A DNA stretch of 49,839 bases, from positions 104,272 to 154,110 of the forward strand of contig LJSV01000009.1 in NCBI GenBank assembly GCA_001314715.1, given 5' to 3'. Each line of letters opens with the position of its first letter. Position 1 is the stretch's first letter. Below, one piece after another: positions 21,311-27,621 of this stretch. A model generated the notes under the pieces. It saw only the letters and a program-made list of their open reading frames with translations, made no database searches and was not told where the DNA came from. The position numbers were made by a program, and so were the translations under genes. This DNA comes from Rhodobacteraceae bacterium HLUCCA12 (GTDB taxonomy: Bacteria > Pseudomonadota > Alphaproteobacteria > Rhodobacterales > Rhodobacteraceae).

Positions 21311-21369
21311 GTTTCGCGCATCCCATCCATGCCATTCTTATGCAAATCGACAGGGCAGTATGCAGTTGC

Positions 21370-21385
21370 ATTCTGTATCTGGAAT
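21370..21385. promoter_or_regulatory. SqrR-type operator (ATTC-N8-GAAT)
   Basis: ATTC TGTATCTG GAAT, 43 bases before the SQR start codon and within an AT-rich promoter-like stretch. As I recall it, the motif reported for the sulfide-responsive repressor SqrR of Rhodobacter capsulatus is ATTC-N8-GAAT, with sqr as the principal target. Confidence 0.6.
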
Positions 21386-21427
21386 GTATATCCAAATATC
21401 GTCATATTCATATGGGTGGAGGAAGAG

Positions 21428-22744
21428 ATGTCCGATCCTTGGGAATTGAGCGCGAGCAGACGGGCGTTTCTGGGCCTGGCGGCCGGGGGCGCGGCGCTGG
21501 CGGCGGCGGGGGCGCCAGCACAGGCGCAGCGGGTCCGCACCTCGGCCCGGATCGTGATTCTGGGTGCGGGCGCCGGCGGCACGTCGATCGCCAACCGGCT
21601 GGCCGCGCGGCTGGACGGGGCCGAGATCACGATCATCGACGGGCGCCAGCAGCACTGGTATCAGCCCGGCTTCACGCTGATCGCCGCCGGGTTGAAGCCC
21701 GCGAGCTATTCGGTCAGCCAAACCGGCGCCTGGTTGCCCGATGGGGTGAACTGGGTGCAGGACTACGCCGCCGAGATCGACCCCGATGCCAACCGCGTGA
21801 CCACGACCGGCGGCCAGCGGTTCGACTATGATTACCTGATCGTCGCCACCGGCCTGACGCTGGATTGGGATGCGATCGAGGGGTTCTCGCTGGACATGGT
21901 GGGCCAGAACGGGATCAGCGCGCATTACGCGGGGCCCGACTATGCCGAACTGAGCTGGCGCGCGCTTGATCGTTTCACCGATGAAGGCGGCGTCGGGCTG
22001 TTTGGCCGGCCCGCGACCGAGATGAAATGCGCCGGTGCCCCGCTCAAGATCACCATGATCGCCGAGGACATCGCCACCCGCAAGGGCACGCGCGCGGATA
22101 CGCGGATCGTCTATAACGCCAACAACCAGTTGCTGTTCGGGGTTCCGATCGTGCATCACCGCGTGCGCCAGATCTTTGACGAGCGCGGCATCGAGGTGCG
22201 CGACAGCCACGTGCTGAAGGCCGTGGATGCCGAGCGCAAGGTCGCGGTCTATGAAACCCCCGATGGCGATGTCGAATCCGACTATGACTTCATCAACGTC
22301 ATTCCGCCCCAGCGCGCGCCGCAGGTCGTGCGCGAGTCCGGCCTGTCCTGGGCCGACCGCTGGACCGATCAGGGCTGGATCGAGGTCGATCGCGAAACCC
22401 TGCGGCATCTGCGGTATGACAACATCTTCGGCATCGGCGACATCAACGGCGTGCCCAAGGGCAAGACCGCGGCCAGCGTGAAATGGCACCAGCCGGTGGT
22501 CGAGGATCATCTGGTCAGCGAGATCCAGGGCCGCGAAGGCACAGCCCGGTTCTCGGGCTATACCTCGTGCCCGATGATCACCCGGATCGGACGCGCCATG
22601 CTGATCGAGTTCGACTACAACGACAACCTTGTGCCCTCGTTTCCCGGCGTGATCGCGCCGCTGGAAGAGCTGTGGATTTCCTGGCTGATGAAGGAGATCG
22701 CGCTGAAACCCACCTATAACGCCATGCTGCGCGGACTGGCCTGA
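21428..22744 (+). CDS. sqr: sulfide:quinone oxidoreductase (SQR-like FAD protein) with Tat signal
   Basis: A 438-residue flavoprotein oxidising sulfide (or a persulfide) and passing electrons to quinone at the membrane. It starts with a twin-arginine-type signal (SRRAFLGLAAGG), then a Rossmann FAD site (VILGAGAGGTS near 42). The two redox cysteines are in MKCAGAPLK (C201) and YTSCPMI (C381). The Cys pattern and the C-terminal ILxEFDY-like segment (AMLIEFDYND) resemble the type II / SQOR-like branch rather than classical SqrA with three Cys. GGAGGAAGAG precedes the ATG. A DUF5368 membrane protein follows after 11 bases. Flavocytochrome c sulfide dehydrogenase is the main alternative, but the cysteine spacing favours SQR. 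Confidence 0.85.
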   Translation: MSDPWELSASRRAFLGLAAGGAALAAAGAPAQAQRVRTSARIVILGAGAGGTSIANRLAARLDGAEITIIDGRQQHWYQPGFTLIAAGLKPASYSVSQTGAWLPDGVNWVQDYAAEIDPDANRVTTTGGQRFDYDYLIVATGLTLDWDAIEGFSLDMVGQNGISAHYAGPDYAELSWRALDRFTDEGGVGLFGRPATEMKCAGAPLKITMIAEDIATRKGTRADTRIVYNANNQLLFGVPIVHHRVRQIFDERGIEVRDSHVLKAVDAERKVAVYETPDGDVESDYDFINVIPPQRAPQVVRESGLSWADRWTDQGWIEVDRETLRHLRYDNIFGIGDINGVPKGKTAASVKWHQPVVEDHLVSEIQGREGTARFSGYTSCPMITRIGRAMLIEFDYNDNLVPSFPGVIAPLEELWISWLMKEIALKPTYNAMLRGLA

Positions 22745-23191: not shown

Positions 23192-23334
23192 GCGCGGATC
23201 ACATTTGGGGCAGCGGCGGGGATGCGACGGTTCGTCGCTTTACATATCCGATCTAATCTGTCAGGAAAGTGCGTGCCGGAAGCCCGACGCCACCGGCGAA
23301 GTGGTCCCGACGTGGTTTACCGGATACTTGCGCC

Positions 23335-23592
23335 ATGATTGTCTGCCATTGCATGAACATCGCCGATCACGAGATTCGCGGCGCCGTCGACTGGATGCGC
23401 GCCGCCGATCCGGACACCATCATTACCCCTCGCAAAGTGTATCGCGCGCTTGGCAAATCTGCCGATTGCGGCGGTTGCCTGCCCCTTTTCCTTGACACCA
23501 TGCGCCGCTGTGACAGTCTTGCGGTGACGGGGGGCGGTGTGCCAGGGCAGTCCGTTCCCCTTTTCGGCACCGCGAAAAGGAAGGCACCATGA
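23335..23592 (+). CDS. bfd: bacterioferritin-associated ferredoxin
   Basis: An 85-residue [2Fe-2S] protein that gives electrons to bacterioferritin to release stored iron. The cluster ligands are C4 and C6 in MIVCHCMNI and C45 and C48 in SADCGGC, the BFD domain pattern. The start at 23335 places the paired cysteines at the N-terminus as in the family. The stop overlaps the bfr start (ATGA), so storage protein and reductase partner are made together. The upstream gap (23192-23334) holds no operator that I can name, although iron control is likely. Confidence 0.9.
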
Positions 23593-24068
23593 AGGGCGAT
23601 CCCAAGGTTATCGAGTATCTCAACGCGGCATTGCGCTCGGAACTGACGGCGGTCAGCCAGTATTGGCTGCACTACCGTTTGCAGGAGGACTGGGGCTATG
23701 GCCACCTGGCCGACAAGTCCCGCGCCGAATCGATCGAGGAGATGCATCACGCCGACAAGCTGATCGAGCGGATCATCTTTCTGGAGGGGCATCCGAACCT
23801 GCAAAAGCTTGACCCGTTGCGGATCGGCCAGACCCTGCGCGAGACGCTGGAATGCGATCTGGCGGGCGAGCACGATGCGCGCACCCTCTATATCGAGGCG
23901 CGGCAGCATTGCGACCAGGTGGGCGATTATGTCACCCGCGCGTTGTTCGACGATCTGATCGCCGACGAGGAAGGGCATATCGACTTTCTGGAAACCCAGC
24001 TCGATCTCTATGAGAAGCTGGGCGCAGAGCGGTATGGCCTGCTCAACGCCAAGCCGGCAAGCGACTAG
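23589..24068 (+). CDS. bfr: bacterioferritin
   Basis: A 159-residue four-helix iron-storage subunit forming 24-mers. Visible are ferroxidase ligands Glu18, Glu51 and His54 (EEMHHAD) and the heme ligand Met52. Later ligands lie in DLAGEHDAR and in [12 protein letters not shown]. Length and N-terminus ([12 protein letters not shown]) match classical heme-containing Bfr. It is coupled to bfd by a four-base overlap. In this window it is the intracellular counterpart of the heme-uptake locus at 40-49 kb. Confidence 0.97.
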
Positions 24069-24196
24069 GCGCCGCGTCGGCGTTGTCGGCCGATCACGGG
24101 GCGCGCGGCGGGTTGTTCGGCGCGGCCCCGGCTGATTCCTGAACGTGCCGGTCACGCCCGTGGGCGTATCCAGAACTGGCGCGAGTCGTTTCCCCG

Positions 24197-24225
24197 TTGC
24201 GCCGCGCCCGCGGCCCATGCTACGG
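24197..24225 (+). promoter_or_regulatory. putative promoter of the cysS leader
   Basis: TTGCGC (24197-24202), 17 bases, CTACGG (24220-24225). The eight bases to the leader ATG at 24234 mean the transcript would begin at or next to that ATG. The rest of the gap 24069-24196 shows only GC-rich sequence. Confidence 0.4.
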
Positions 24226-24233
24226 CAAGCGCC

Positions 24234-24278
24234 ATGAGATTGACGCGCATCAACGGCATTTGCTGCATTACCCGCTGA
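24234..24278 (+). CDS. cysteine leader peptide upstream of cysS
   Basis: A 14-residue ORF, MRLTRINGICCITR, with tandem Cys codons (TGC TGC at 24261-24266) ending 94 bases before cysS. Cys is a rare amino acid, and two in a row just upstream of cysteinyl-tRNA synthetase is the hallmark of an attenuation leader sensing charged tRNA-Cys. The ATG sits at the predicted start of transcription, as in leaderless trpL-type leaders. Too short to have homologues recognised by reading, so the call rests on composition and position. Confidence 0.6.
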   Translation: MRLTRINGICCITR

Positions 24279-24297
24279 CTGACCGGTCGCGCGGGGC

Positions 24298-24366
24298 GCC
24301 TCATTTCCATCGGAAAGCGAAGCCGCCGGACCCGCGCAGGGGACTGCCGCGAGGGCCCATGGAGGC
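24298..24366 (+). promoter_or_regulatory. possible ribosome-site-sequestering pairing before cysS
   Basis: GCCTC (24298-24302) can pair with GAGGC (24362-24366), which contains the cysS ribosome site GGAGG. Flanking CCAT/ATGG could extend the stem past a small bulge. A ribosome stalled at the Cys codons just upstream could change this fold. No T-run terminator is visible, so translational control is more likely than transcription termination. Confidence 0.3.
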
Positions 24367-24372
24367 TGACGC

Positions 24373-25848
24373 ATGGTAACGATCCGGCTGCACAATTCGA
24401 AAACGCGCAAGAAGGAAGACTTCGCGCCGATCGATCCAGAGAATGTGCGCATGTATGTTTGCGGCCCCACGGTCTATGACCGCGCGCATCTGGGCAATGC
24501 GCGGCCGGTGGTGGTGTTCGACGTGCTGTTCCGGCTACTGCGCCATGTCTATGGCGCCGATCACGTGACCTATGTGCGCAACTTCACCGACGTTGACGAC
24601 AAGATCAATGCCCGCGCCCGCGAGATGCAGGCCGCGGGCGATGCGCGCGATCTCAACACGATCATCCGGGCGCTGACGGATGAAACGATTGACTGGTTTC
24701 ATCAGGACATGGATGCGCTGGGTGCCGCGCGTCCCACCCGTGAGCCGCGCGCGACCGAATACATCGGCCAGATGATCGCCATGATCGGCACCCTGATCGA
24801 CCGGGGATGTGCATATGTCGAACAGGGCCATGTGCTGTTCGACGTGCACAGCTATCGCGAGTACGGCGCGCTGTCGGGCCGGTCGCTGGAGGACATGATC
24901 GCGGGCGCGCGGGTCGAGACCGCGCCCTACAAGCGCGATCCGATGGATTTCGTTCTGTGGAAACCGTCATCCGGGGACGAGCCGGGTTGGCCGTCGCCAT
25001 GGGGGCGGGGGCGGCCGGGCTGGCATATCGAATGTTCGGCCATGGCGGATGAATTGCTGGGGGCGGAGTTCGACATTCACGGCGGCGGGCTGGATTTGCA
25101 ATTCCCCCACCACGAGAACGAGATCGCGCAAAGCTGCTGCGCCCACCCGGACGCCGGGTTCGCGCGGTACTGGATGCACAACGAGATGGTGCAGGTCGAG
25201 GGCAAGAAGATGTCCAAGAGCCTGGGCAATTTCTTCACGGTGCGGGATTTGCTGGAGCAGGGTTGGCCGGGCGAGGTGATCCGGTTCGTGATGCTGTCAA
25301 CGCATTATCGGAAGCCGATGGACTGGACGGAGGAAAAGGCCAAACAAGCCGAAATAATCCTCCGCAAATGGTTTGATCATCTAAAGAATTCACACTTGGA
25401 TTTGTCTGTTGATAGTTTGACTCGATATACGATGGAGCCGTGCGTCGTTCCTGACCAAATGATTATTAGAGCATTGGCAGACGATCTGAATACCGCAGCG
25501 GCCATAAGTCGCCTTCACGAGTTGGCTAAACGAAATGATTATGAAAGCATAAATGCATTCCTAGGCTCTATGGTCTTGCTCGGATTGATTGGTCCGAAGA
25601 CTGAAATAGATTTGTTGTCGCTATCGGGCGTAGGCTGGCTTGGAACATATGATCCGCAGCTAGAGAAGAAGGTTGTGCGCCTGTTATTTGATCGGCAGGA
25701 CGCTCGAAAGCGAAAGGACTTCAGCCGCGCCGACGAAATTCGCGACGCACTTCTGAGCGCTGGAATTGTCATAGAAGACAGGCCAGATGGGCCGGAGTGG
25801 CACGTGGGGCCAAACTTTGACCCCGCCAAGCTGGAGGGTCTGGAATGA
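24373..25848 (+). CDS. cysS: cysteine--tRNA ligase
   Basis: A 491-residue class I synthetase charging tRNA-Cys. The N-terminal catalytic part has [10 protein letters not shown] (zinc ligand Cys), the HIGH-type motif HLGNARP, zinc ligands in HIECSAM and FPHHENE, and [10 protein letters not shown] helical DALR-like C-terminal region follows. GGAGG lies seven bases before the ATG. The gene is a compositional mosaic. Up to about 25340 it has host-like high GC. From there to about 25700 it falls to the low-to-mid 40s percent GC with AT-rich codons, then recovers by the stop. The frame stays open and the end ([17 protein letters not shown]) is normal for the family, so the enzyme is probably functional. 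Confidence 0.95.
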
Positions 25849-26001: not shown

Positions 26002-27621
26002 ATGCGTGAACGCCTCTATCTCTACGACACCACGCTGCGCGACGGGCAGCAGACGCAGGGTGTGCAGTTCTCGACCGGCGACAAGCTGGCGATCGCGCAG
26101 GCGCTGGACGATCTTGGCATCGACTATATCGAAGGGGGTTGGCCCGGTGCCAACCCGACCGACAGCGACTTCTTTACCGAGGCGCCAGAGACCCGCGCGC
26201 GCATGACTGCCTTTGGCATGACCAAGCGGGCCGGGCGCTCGGCTGCCAATGACGATGTTCTGGGCGCCGTGGTCAACGCGGGCACGCAGACCGTGTGCCT
26301 GGTTGGCAAGACGCATGATTTTCACGTCACCGCCGCGCTGGGCATCACGCTGGACGAAAACCTTGAGAACATCCGCGCCTCGGTCGCGCATCTGGTCGGG
26401 CTGGGGCGCGAGGCGCTTTTCGATGCCGAGCATTTCTTTGACGGCTACAAGGCCAACCCCGGCTATGCGCTGGATTGCCTGCACGCCGCACTGGAGGCCG
26501 GGGCGCGCTGGGTGGTCCTGTGCGACACCAACGGCGGCACCCTGCCGGCCGAGGTCGGGCGCATCACCCGCGACGTGATCGCGGCGGGCGTGCCGGGGGA
26601 CCGGCTGGGCATCCATTGCCATGACGATACCGGCAACGCGGTGGCGGGGTCGCTGGCGGCGGTGGATGCGGGCGCGCGGCAGGTACAAGGCACGCTTAAC
26701 GGTTTGGGTGAACGGTGCGGCAACGCCAATCTGACCACGCTGATCCCGACGCTGTTGCTGAAAGAGCCCTATGCCAGCGGGTTCGACACGGGCATCACCA
26801 CCGGGGCGCTTGCGGGGCTCGTCAAGATATCGCGCCGGCTTGATGACATCCTCAACCGGGTGCCCTTGCGCAGCGCACCCTATGTCGGTGCCTCGGCCTT
26901 TGCGCACAAGGCCGGGCTACATGCCAGCGCGATCCTGAAAGACCCCTCGACCTATGAACATATCGACCCGGCGCTGGTGGGAAACACCCGCGTCATCCCG
27001 ATGTCGAACCAGGCCGGGCAATCGAACCTGCGCGCGCGGCTGGCGGCGGCCGGGATCGAGGTCGCGCCGGGTGATCCGCGCCTGAGCCGCATCCTTGAGC
27101 AGGTGAAGCAGCGCGAGGACCAGGGCTATGCCTATGACGGGGCGCAGGCCTCGTTCGAGTTGCTGGCAAGGGCCGAGCTGGGCCTGTTGCCCGACTATTT
27201 CGAAGTGAAGCGCTATCGCGTCACGGTCGAGCGGCGCAAGAACAAGTACGACCGTATGATCAGCCTGTCCGAGGCCGTGGTGGTGGTGAAAATCGGCAAC
27301 CGGAAGATGCTGTCGGTGTCCGAAAGCATGGATGAAACCGGGTCCGACCGTGGCCCGGTCAATGCGCTGGCCAAGGCGCTGGCCAAGGACCTGGGGCCGT
27401 ATCAGGGCGTGATCGACGACATGAAGCTGGTCGATTACAAGGTGCGCATCACCCAGGGCGGCACCGAGGCGGTGACCCGTGTCATCATCGACAGCGAGGA
27501 CAGCGCGGGGCGGCGCTGGTCGGCAGTGGGCGTATCGCCCAACCTGGTCGATGCCTCGTTCGAGGCGCTGCGCGAGGCGATGGTGTGGAAGCTCTTGCGC
27601 GACGAGGTCGAACCCGTCTGA
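26002..27621 (+). CDS. cimA: (R)-citramalate synthase
   Basis: A 539-residue enzyme of the DRE-TIM family condensing pyruvate and acetyl-CoA to citramalate, the threonine-independent entry to isoleucine. The N-terminal TIM barrel starts LYDTTLRDGQQTQGVQFS and has GGWPGANPTD, the HCHDDTGNAVA metal-site motif and NGLGERCGN. The C-terminal third (about 390-535) is the LeuA-type regulatory domain. The GGWPG segment, length and TIM-barrel signature favour citramalate synthase over isopropylmalate or homocitrate synthase. The start at 26002 matches the family N-terminus. The alpha/beta hydrolase gene follows 10 bases later. Confidence 0.9.
   Translation: MRERLYLYDTTLRDGQQTQGVQFSTGDKLAIAQALDDLGIDYIEGGWPGANPTDSDFFTEAPETRARMTAFGMTKRAGRSAANDDVLGAVVNAGTQTVCLVGKTHDFHVTAALGITLDENLENIRASVAHLVGLGREALFDAEHFFDGYKANPGYALDCLHAALEAGARWVVLCDTNGGTLPAEVGRITRDVIAAGVPGDRLGIHCHDDTGNAVAGSLAAVDAGARQVQGTLNGLGERCGNANLTTLIPTLLLKEPYASGFDTGITTGALAGLVKISRRLDDILNRVPLRSAPYVGASAFAHKAGLHASAILKDPSTYEHIDPALVGNTRVIPMSNQAGQSNLRARLAAAGIEVAPGDPRLSRILEQVKQREDQGYAYDGAQASFELLARAELGLLPDYFEVKRYRVTVERRKNKYDRMISLSEAVVVVKIGNRKMLSVSESMDETGSDRGPVNALAKALAKDLGPYQGVIDDMKLVDYKVRITQGGTEAVTRVIIDSEDSAGRRWSAVGVSPNLVDASFEALREAMVWKLLRDEVEPV

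Follow-up and report, generated by a model that had tools for sequence, protein, structure and literature searches.

The locus described here raises the question of which amino acids are sensed by a short upstream open reading frame (uORF) that precedes the cysteine--tRNA ligase gene cysS of Rhodobacteraceae bacterium HLUCCA12, and on behalf of which genes. We analysed it within a stretch of 49,839 nucleotides (contig LJSV01000009.1, positions 104,272 to 154,110 of the forward strand; hereafter the window), together with the corresponding leaders of related genomes. Sequence comparison makes it likely that the leader controls a cysS-cimA operon by ribosome-mediated attenuation, through a leader peptide that reports on two amino acids, cysteine and isoleucine. 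The features on which the argument depends are as follows.

24197 to 24226, + strand: promoter P1, read by eye, with -35 element TTGCGC (24197 to 24202), 18 intervening bases and -10 element TACGGC (24221 to 24226)
24234 to 24278, + strand: probably leaderless uORF MRLTRINGICCITR, with ATG at 24234 to 24236 and stop codon TGA at 24276 to 24278
24249 to 24251, 24258 to 24260 and 24267 to 24269, + strand: the three Ile codons of the uORF
24261 to 24266, + strand: the tandem Cys codons TGC TGC of the uORF, read from the sequence
24361 to 24366, + strand: ribosome-binding site of cysS, GGAGGC, from the sequence
24373 to 25848, + strand: cysS, cysteine--tRNA ligase (TIGR00435, 470.9 bits, cut-off 340)
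26002 to 27621, + strand: cimA, citramalate synthase (TIGR00977, 590.3 bits, cut-off 450), with ATG 26002 chosen as the likely start of a listed ORF that opens at TTG 25966

The initial annotation had given the coordinates and codons of this ORF, a gap of 94 bases between its stop and the cysS ATG (24373), and the coincidence of its ATG with the predicted transcription start, all of which direct reading confirms; it passed over the three Ile codons and the presence of cimA behind cysS. Upstream of the leader the window encodes, within 23269 to 24068, a bacterioferritin (TIGR00754) preceded by a small Cys-containing ORF without an NCBIfam match that we take to resemble a bacterioferritin-associated ferredoxin, and further a sulfide:quinone oxidoreductase-like flavoprotein (21329 to 22744) whose best NCBIfam match falls below the cut-off.

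Cysteine codons are a conserved property of this leader. We compared cysS leaders from 162 genomes of the family (approximately one per genus, plus the genus of the window) and 17 from other alphaproteobacterial families. A short ORF with tandem Cys residues (CC in the last 8 residues, ORF 60-200 bases before cysS) is present in 101 of the 162 family leaders and in 1 of the 17 leaders from other families; in 100 dinucleotide-shuffled sets of the family leaders the count averaged 0.62 and never exceeded 3. When CC, CxC or CxxC are all admitted, the family count rises to 120 of 162, versus 1.8 in shuffles. The search for short tandem-Cys ORFs in related cysS leaders that had been proposed as a check thus bears out the claim that a leader peptide carrying Cys control codons is conserved before cysS. 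For the analyses below we used a set of 149 uORFs, obtained after discarding one misassigned ORF (L088) and substituting, by hand, the in-register uORF in L028 and L175. Twelve of the 162 family leaders yield no candidate under a rule asking for Cys near the end of the ORF, among them L151, which by eye reads IIGICIRR in register and lacks the usual stop.

We also took 19 letters from the end of the uORF as a core and searched with it a collection of 84,980 species, each represented by a single genome. This gave 102 stretches, in 80 of which a cysS start lies 98-166 bases past the first core base; in a further two (L208 and L221) the uORF is present and the sequence ends within 160 bases. The remaining 20 stretches are without cysS, one of them with just 52 bases to inspect, and an in-frame ATG is found near the core in 5 of these 20. 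Since 80 of the 102 core stretches sit directly upstream of cysS, the uORF is, judged by its sequence context, an element of cysS loci. A plasmid collection returned 13 records, and the five listed among these cover 41% of the query, i.e. its last 129 bases.

The uORF appears to be read without a ribosome-binding site of its own. By eye, 13 bases separate the first T of the P1 -10 element from the A of the uORF ATG; a scan of the window with a sigma-70 consensus found no promoter, this consensus being of the E. coli type, which P1 does not match. Among the 149 leaders, a TA occurs upstream of the uORF ATG in 136 (by a loose test that takes the first TA in bases 4-22 before the ATG), and in 116 of these 136 its spacing is 12-13 bases, compared with a mean of 7.7 and a maximum of 12 in shuffled leaders. 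Shine-Dalgarno-like tetramers precede the uORF in 7 of 149 leaders versus cysS in 122 of 149. Given this conserved TA-ATG spacing, and the rarity of Shine-Dalgarno-like tetramers before the uORF, it is probably leaderless, with transcription starting at or beside its ATG.

Four segments around and behind the uORF stop are candidates for alternative pairing.

24271 to 24275, + strand: region 1, CCCGC, in the final uORF codons (Thr-Arg), predicted to pair with GCGGG of region 2 and thereby to form stem 1, which encloses the uORF stop
24277 to 24288, + strand: inner part of stem 1, GAC (24277 to 24279) with GTC (24286 to 24288), overlapping the uORF stop
24289 to 24295, + strand: region 2, GCGCGGG, predicted partner of region 1 or region 3
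24331 to 24337, + strand: region 3, CCCGCGC, predicted to pair with region 2

The inner part of stem 1 varies in relatives between GAC/GTC, GAGC/GCTC and GACC/GGTC (by eye). When regions are exchanged between leaders, the 1:2 gapped duplex is more stable with its own partner (-12.07, versus -10.77 with swapped partners, sd 0.13), and its ungapped score is only weakly above that of swapped partners (z 1.9-2.4). Pairing of regions 2 and 3 scores 20.04 with own partners and 18.09 after partners are exchanged across genera (z 8.9, 0 of 200), an advantage of just about 2 sd when measured as duplex energy over longer segments. No own-partner advantage is seen in the control pairings, namely region 2 or region 1 with the Shine-Dalgarno segment (z -2.1 and -4.7) and region 1 with region 3 (z 0.1). 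Moreover, hiding region 1 doubles the expected number of 2:3 pairs, from 1.77 to 3.56 (p 6e-10). Comparative pairing and predicted folding therefore support mutually exclusive 1:2 and 2:3 helices. Two other pairings were rejected: that of region 3 with the cysS ribosome site, whose z of 6.0 arose from overlapping segments and fell to 1.2 (22 of 200) without the overlap, and a hairpin within the 2:3 loop, which is visible by eye in a close group and family-wide is worse than swapped partners (z -5.6). A MAFFT alignment (A1; 60 of 73 references plus the window) was set aside for pair counting, its rows having been picked for an exact region 1 and region 3 being off by a column in some of them.

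The sequences give no clear readout for such a switch. A terminator scan of the window found none, only 50 of the 149 leaders have a T run of at least 4 behind stem 1 (the longest in the window is 3), and among leaders inspected by eye a 3:4 terminator with a U run was seen in L006 and L007 only (L220 and L190 are likely the same genomes). The initial annotation had instead proposed that GCCTC pairs with GAGGC at the cysS ribosome site, and that stalling frees the latter. Such translational attenuation, whether the signal is Cys or Cys plus Ile, is in our judgement rather unlikely. Both sequences are present as claimed (GCCTC at 24298 to 24302, GAGGC at 24362 to 24366), and the tract behind stem 1 pairs somewhat better with its own ribosome site than with swapped ones, by gapped duplex energy (-8.71 versus -7.86, sd 0.17, about 5 sd) and slightly by score (z 2.1 and 1.8). 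Against this, hiding region 1, i.e. the 5' arm of stem 1, shifts ribosome-site accessibility inconsistently, from 0.42 to 0.43 in 75 leaders (18 up, 14 down), from 0.377 to 0.385 in a larger set of 145 (32 up, 22 down; p 0.06), and from 0.51 to 0.52 in the window itself. What stands of the GCCTC/GAGGC stem is thus its sequences and a slight own-partner advantage, and not the gain in accessibility upon stalling; with mean accessibility about unchanged in both sets, the release is not supported as a general mechanism, and sequestration of the ribosome site was rejected as the general output.

A second promoter-like pair (TTTYC, approximately 17 bases, TANNNC) lies near cysS, between stem 1 and the gene, in 75 of 149 uORF-bearing leaders and in 6 of 13 leaders lacking a uORF (1.2 and 0.06, respectively, in shuffles), including by eye L104, L111 and L136; in the genus of the window it is found in L021 alone of 14 leaders. 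Judged from its sequence, this pair would let cysS transcription start past the leader.

Part of this leader has been described before. A paper in RNA Biology (2021; PMC8632094) reported the motif uORFC-8-2, which precedes cysS in 145 cases from Rhodobacterales and has Cys codons in tandem; attenuation at a terminator with a U run was proposed for it. The suggestion of an undescribed cysS leader therefore does not stand. The window leader would be classed with it, lying upstream of cysS and having tandem Cys codons in a uORF that begins with AUG, and as far as the published description goes the two further share their host order, two stems and ribosome-mediated attenuation. They differ, on the same reading of the published account, in the Ile codons and the cimA linkage added here, and in the window's lack of a terminator: in the interval 20-46 bases past the uORF stop, T runs reach a length of 3 at most, although this placing of the published U run is a guess. 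In the main text of PMC8632094 only cysteine and cysS are discussed, and isoleucine, citramalate, cimA and threonine have zero occurrences; among the open-licence literature we found no other publication on uORFC-8-2.

The isoleucine codons are the main reason to look beyond cysteine. Ile is the commonest residue of the 149 uORFs, with 544 codons (305 ATT, 234 ATC and 5 ATA) versus 404 for Cys (374 TGC and 30 TGT), and while a Cys rule was used to choose the uORFs and in part predetermines how often Cys occurs, Ile played no part in the choice. Counting from the end, Ile occupies the third position (-3) in 138 of 149 uORFs; position -4 is Cys in 100 and Ile in 43 (143 together), position -5 Cys in 105 and Ile in 27 (132 together), position -6 Cys in 52 and Ile in 49 (101 together), and position -7 Ile in 96 and Cys in 10. 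Since every base changes between TGC and ATT, RNA pairing can hardly account for this exchange, and the conserved feature at these positions is, as far as the sequences go, a choice between Cys and Ile. Certain other codons are scarce (3 internal ATG, 1 TGG, 5 ATA, and 10 GTT or GTC), and therefore the amino acid, beyond the base alone, is kept. At position -3 the codon is ATT in 130 cases and ATC in 8, opposite to the first 20 codons of cysS (ATT 22, ATC 216); this bias may reflect an RNA-level or decoding-speed constraint there, and part of the -3 signal may thus be at the RNA level. The view that cysteine is the signal holds for the Cys codons, and probably fails where it makes cysteine the sole signal, Ile codons being at least as conserved.

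Citramalate synthase catalyses the first step of a threonine-independent route to isoleucine, which gives the Ile codons a potential target downstream. Of 101 family genomes with both places listed, 99 have cimA behind cysS in the same orientation (median gap 104). A search of the organism's own genome for threonine deaminase (TIGR01124) gave matches below the cut-off only, which is uninformative. cysS and cimA are adjacent also in four other families that were sampled (G036, G039, G050 and G051), which show no such leader at the usual place before cysS; L162 has one short ORF, MTCATLICG, 250 bases upstream. On one 12-kb contig (G001:C43; L005 and L181) the cysS-cimA pair is found a second time in inverted orientation, both copies scoring the same, which is probably an assembly artefact.

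The presence of an Ile-rich uORF (2 or more Ile) follows cimA linkage closely. It was found at 134 of 143 loci with linked cimA versus 0 of 13 without, a count that left out four loci of unclear linkage (L004, L288, L295 and L296), two whose sequence ends early (L020 and L051), and 13 further loci of the family for which linkage data were lacking, of which 10 were later linked by sequence and one (L062) by coordinates, L110 and L140 being counted on neither side; with these 11 linked loci added it becomes 144 of 154 versus 0 of 13 (Fisher 1.5e-13, kinship ignored). The 13 unlinked loci represent 10 genera, were partly sought on purpose, and lie on contigs that run on past cysS; 16 of 394 genomes at least 98% complete give no cimA match at E 1e-80. 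The uORFs of L284 to L296 were assigned by hand, out-of-place short ORFs (e.g. MTCAPIACRA in L287) being scored as none. The uORF is absent from 10 of the 13 unlinked loci, and the rest comprise two lineages in which Cys is kept and Ile is reduced to one or none: L050 and L285, of one genus, with MDWICCLCRA (3 Cys, 1 Ile), and L291, with MTKQPASAQSFCSRR (1 Cys, 0 Ile). Loss of the uORF in the 10 could reflect rearrangement of the locus instead of a relaxed need for Ile, and the direct test of Ile dependence is that provided by these two unlinked lineages only.

A CysS tree in which 7 of the 13 unlinked loci are represented requires 6 changes for unlinking, at least 3 of them forced by well-supported branches; its bootstrap had not converged, 13 of 69 CysS rows were left out of it, and two loci of unclear or incomplete status were scored in it as having cimA. 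One sister pair sets L293 (no cimA, no uORF) beside L019 (cimA, uORF MKRICIICCIIPC). Three drafts seemingly without cimA carry a full uORF (L288, L295 and L296), their contigs stopping inside or just behind cysS; that of L110 stops 19 bases behind the cysS match. A possible exception is L140 (G135), whose uORF MGTAIRICGICITV has four Ile and also Cys, and for which no cimA was found in a 95%-complete genome of 870 contigs. The 663 bases that follow cysS, a repeat all the way to the end of the contig, contain none either. In L313 of the same genome, a repeat behind cysS starts where the cysS match stops, reaches the contig end and leaves several frames open. Movement of the Ile-rich leader along with cimA was rejected, since no Ile-rich short ORF occurs in the approximately 370-390 bases upstream of a relocated (G082) or a separated (G192) cimA. 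Taken together, codon exchange and linkage make it reasonably probable that the leader is an either-or sensor, in which interchangeable codons would let a shortage of either tRNA-Cys or tRNA-Ile switch on cysS-cimA, and whose Ile codons, or the leader as a whole, would be dropped once cimA is unlinked.

The alternative closest to the literature is a transcription attenuator responding to cysteine alone, in which stalling at Cys codons prevents an intrinsic terminator and the Ile codons are incidental. This is what has been published for 145 Rhodobacterales cysS leaders (PMC8632094, as far as its account extends), and it fits the tandem Cys of 101 in 162 leaders and the retention of both Ile and Cys in L140, for which no cimA has been found so far. 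However, it leaves unexplained why Ile is as conserved as Cys and exchanges with it, why the Ile-rich uORF follows cimA linkage, and how L175 (G031), where cysS and cimA are linked, can have the uORF MNAPNRIIGIIIGG (IIGIIIGG), with five Ile and no Cys; nor does it sit well with a window lacking a terminator and relatives with weak U tracts. We regard it as unlikely. More doubtful still is an arrest peptide, i.e. a hydrophobic nascent chain that stalls the ribosome on a small molecule and not for want of a charged tRNA. High Ile content is what such a peptide would show, yet other hydrophobic residues are rare in the uORFs (Leu 2.7%, Val 0.9%, Phe 0.9%), which disfavours mere hydrophobicity, and the exchange of Cys and Ile at fixed positions is likewise against it. 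That the ORF is a functionless product of chance is hardly credible given its frequency against shuffled leaders, its core at cysS loci and its residue conservation, and we found nothing in its favour.

The two-amino-acid attenuator that we prefer has counterparts among known systems. Enterobacterial thrL (Thr and Ile) and the multivalent ilv leaders combine interleaved control codons with alternative RNA helices; here the pair is Cys and Ile, the uORF is probably leaderless, and the operon combines the gene of a tRNA synthetase with that of an enzyme from an unrelated pathway. In trp-type four-segment attenuators region 1 lies in the end of the uORF, the stop in stem 1:2, and a 2:3 helix competes, an arrangement of region 1, stop codon and 2:3 pairing that recurs in the window leader, which differs in lacking a 3:4 terminator with a U run. 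T-box leaders, by which synthetase genes are controlled through tRNA charging, gave no match in an Rfam scan of 24060 to 24500, where the one match (E 9.7) was to another family. At the sequence level, two marks of a ribosome-mediated attenuator are found, a leader peptide rich in cognate codons and mutually exclusive helices, as is a mark of a bivalent one, Cys and Ile being both enriched and tied to the downstream genes, with L140 as a possible exception. Among the titles listed from open-licence literature we found no publication on a Cys-plus-Ile leader of a cysS-cimA operon, which is weak evidence. The Cys half is published, and, as far as these searches go, the Cys-plus-Ile leader tied to the cysS-cimA operon appears to be new.

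Under the bivalent mechanism, transcription would begin at or next to the ATG, and the uORF would be translated without a ribosome-binding site, as the conserved spacing suggests. When charged tRNA-Cys or tRNA-Ile runs short, the ribosome would pause at the TGC and ATT/ATC codons, which are interleaved, and would cover region 1 within the last codons, so that region 2 would pair with region 3 and not with region 1; comparative pairing argues for the helices, and the switch between them is our proposal. The 2:3 helix would in turn raise downstream expression, perhaps through lost termination (intrinsic or Rho-dependent) or easier translation of cysS. The expected outcome is more CysS when cysteine charging fails, and more CimA when isoleucine fails.

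If this is correct, the published cysteine attenuator would have to be re-read as a sensor of two amino acids, and a family-wide tie between cysteine charging and threonine-independent isoleucine synthesis would become testable. The exchange of Cys and Ile at fixed positions, together with the loss of Ile on unlinking of cimA, would then show with unusual clarity, in the evolutionary record, to which amino acids a leader peptide responds.
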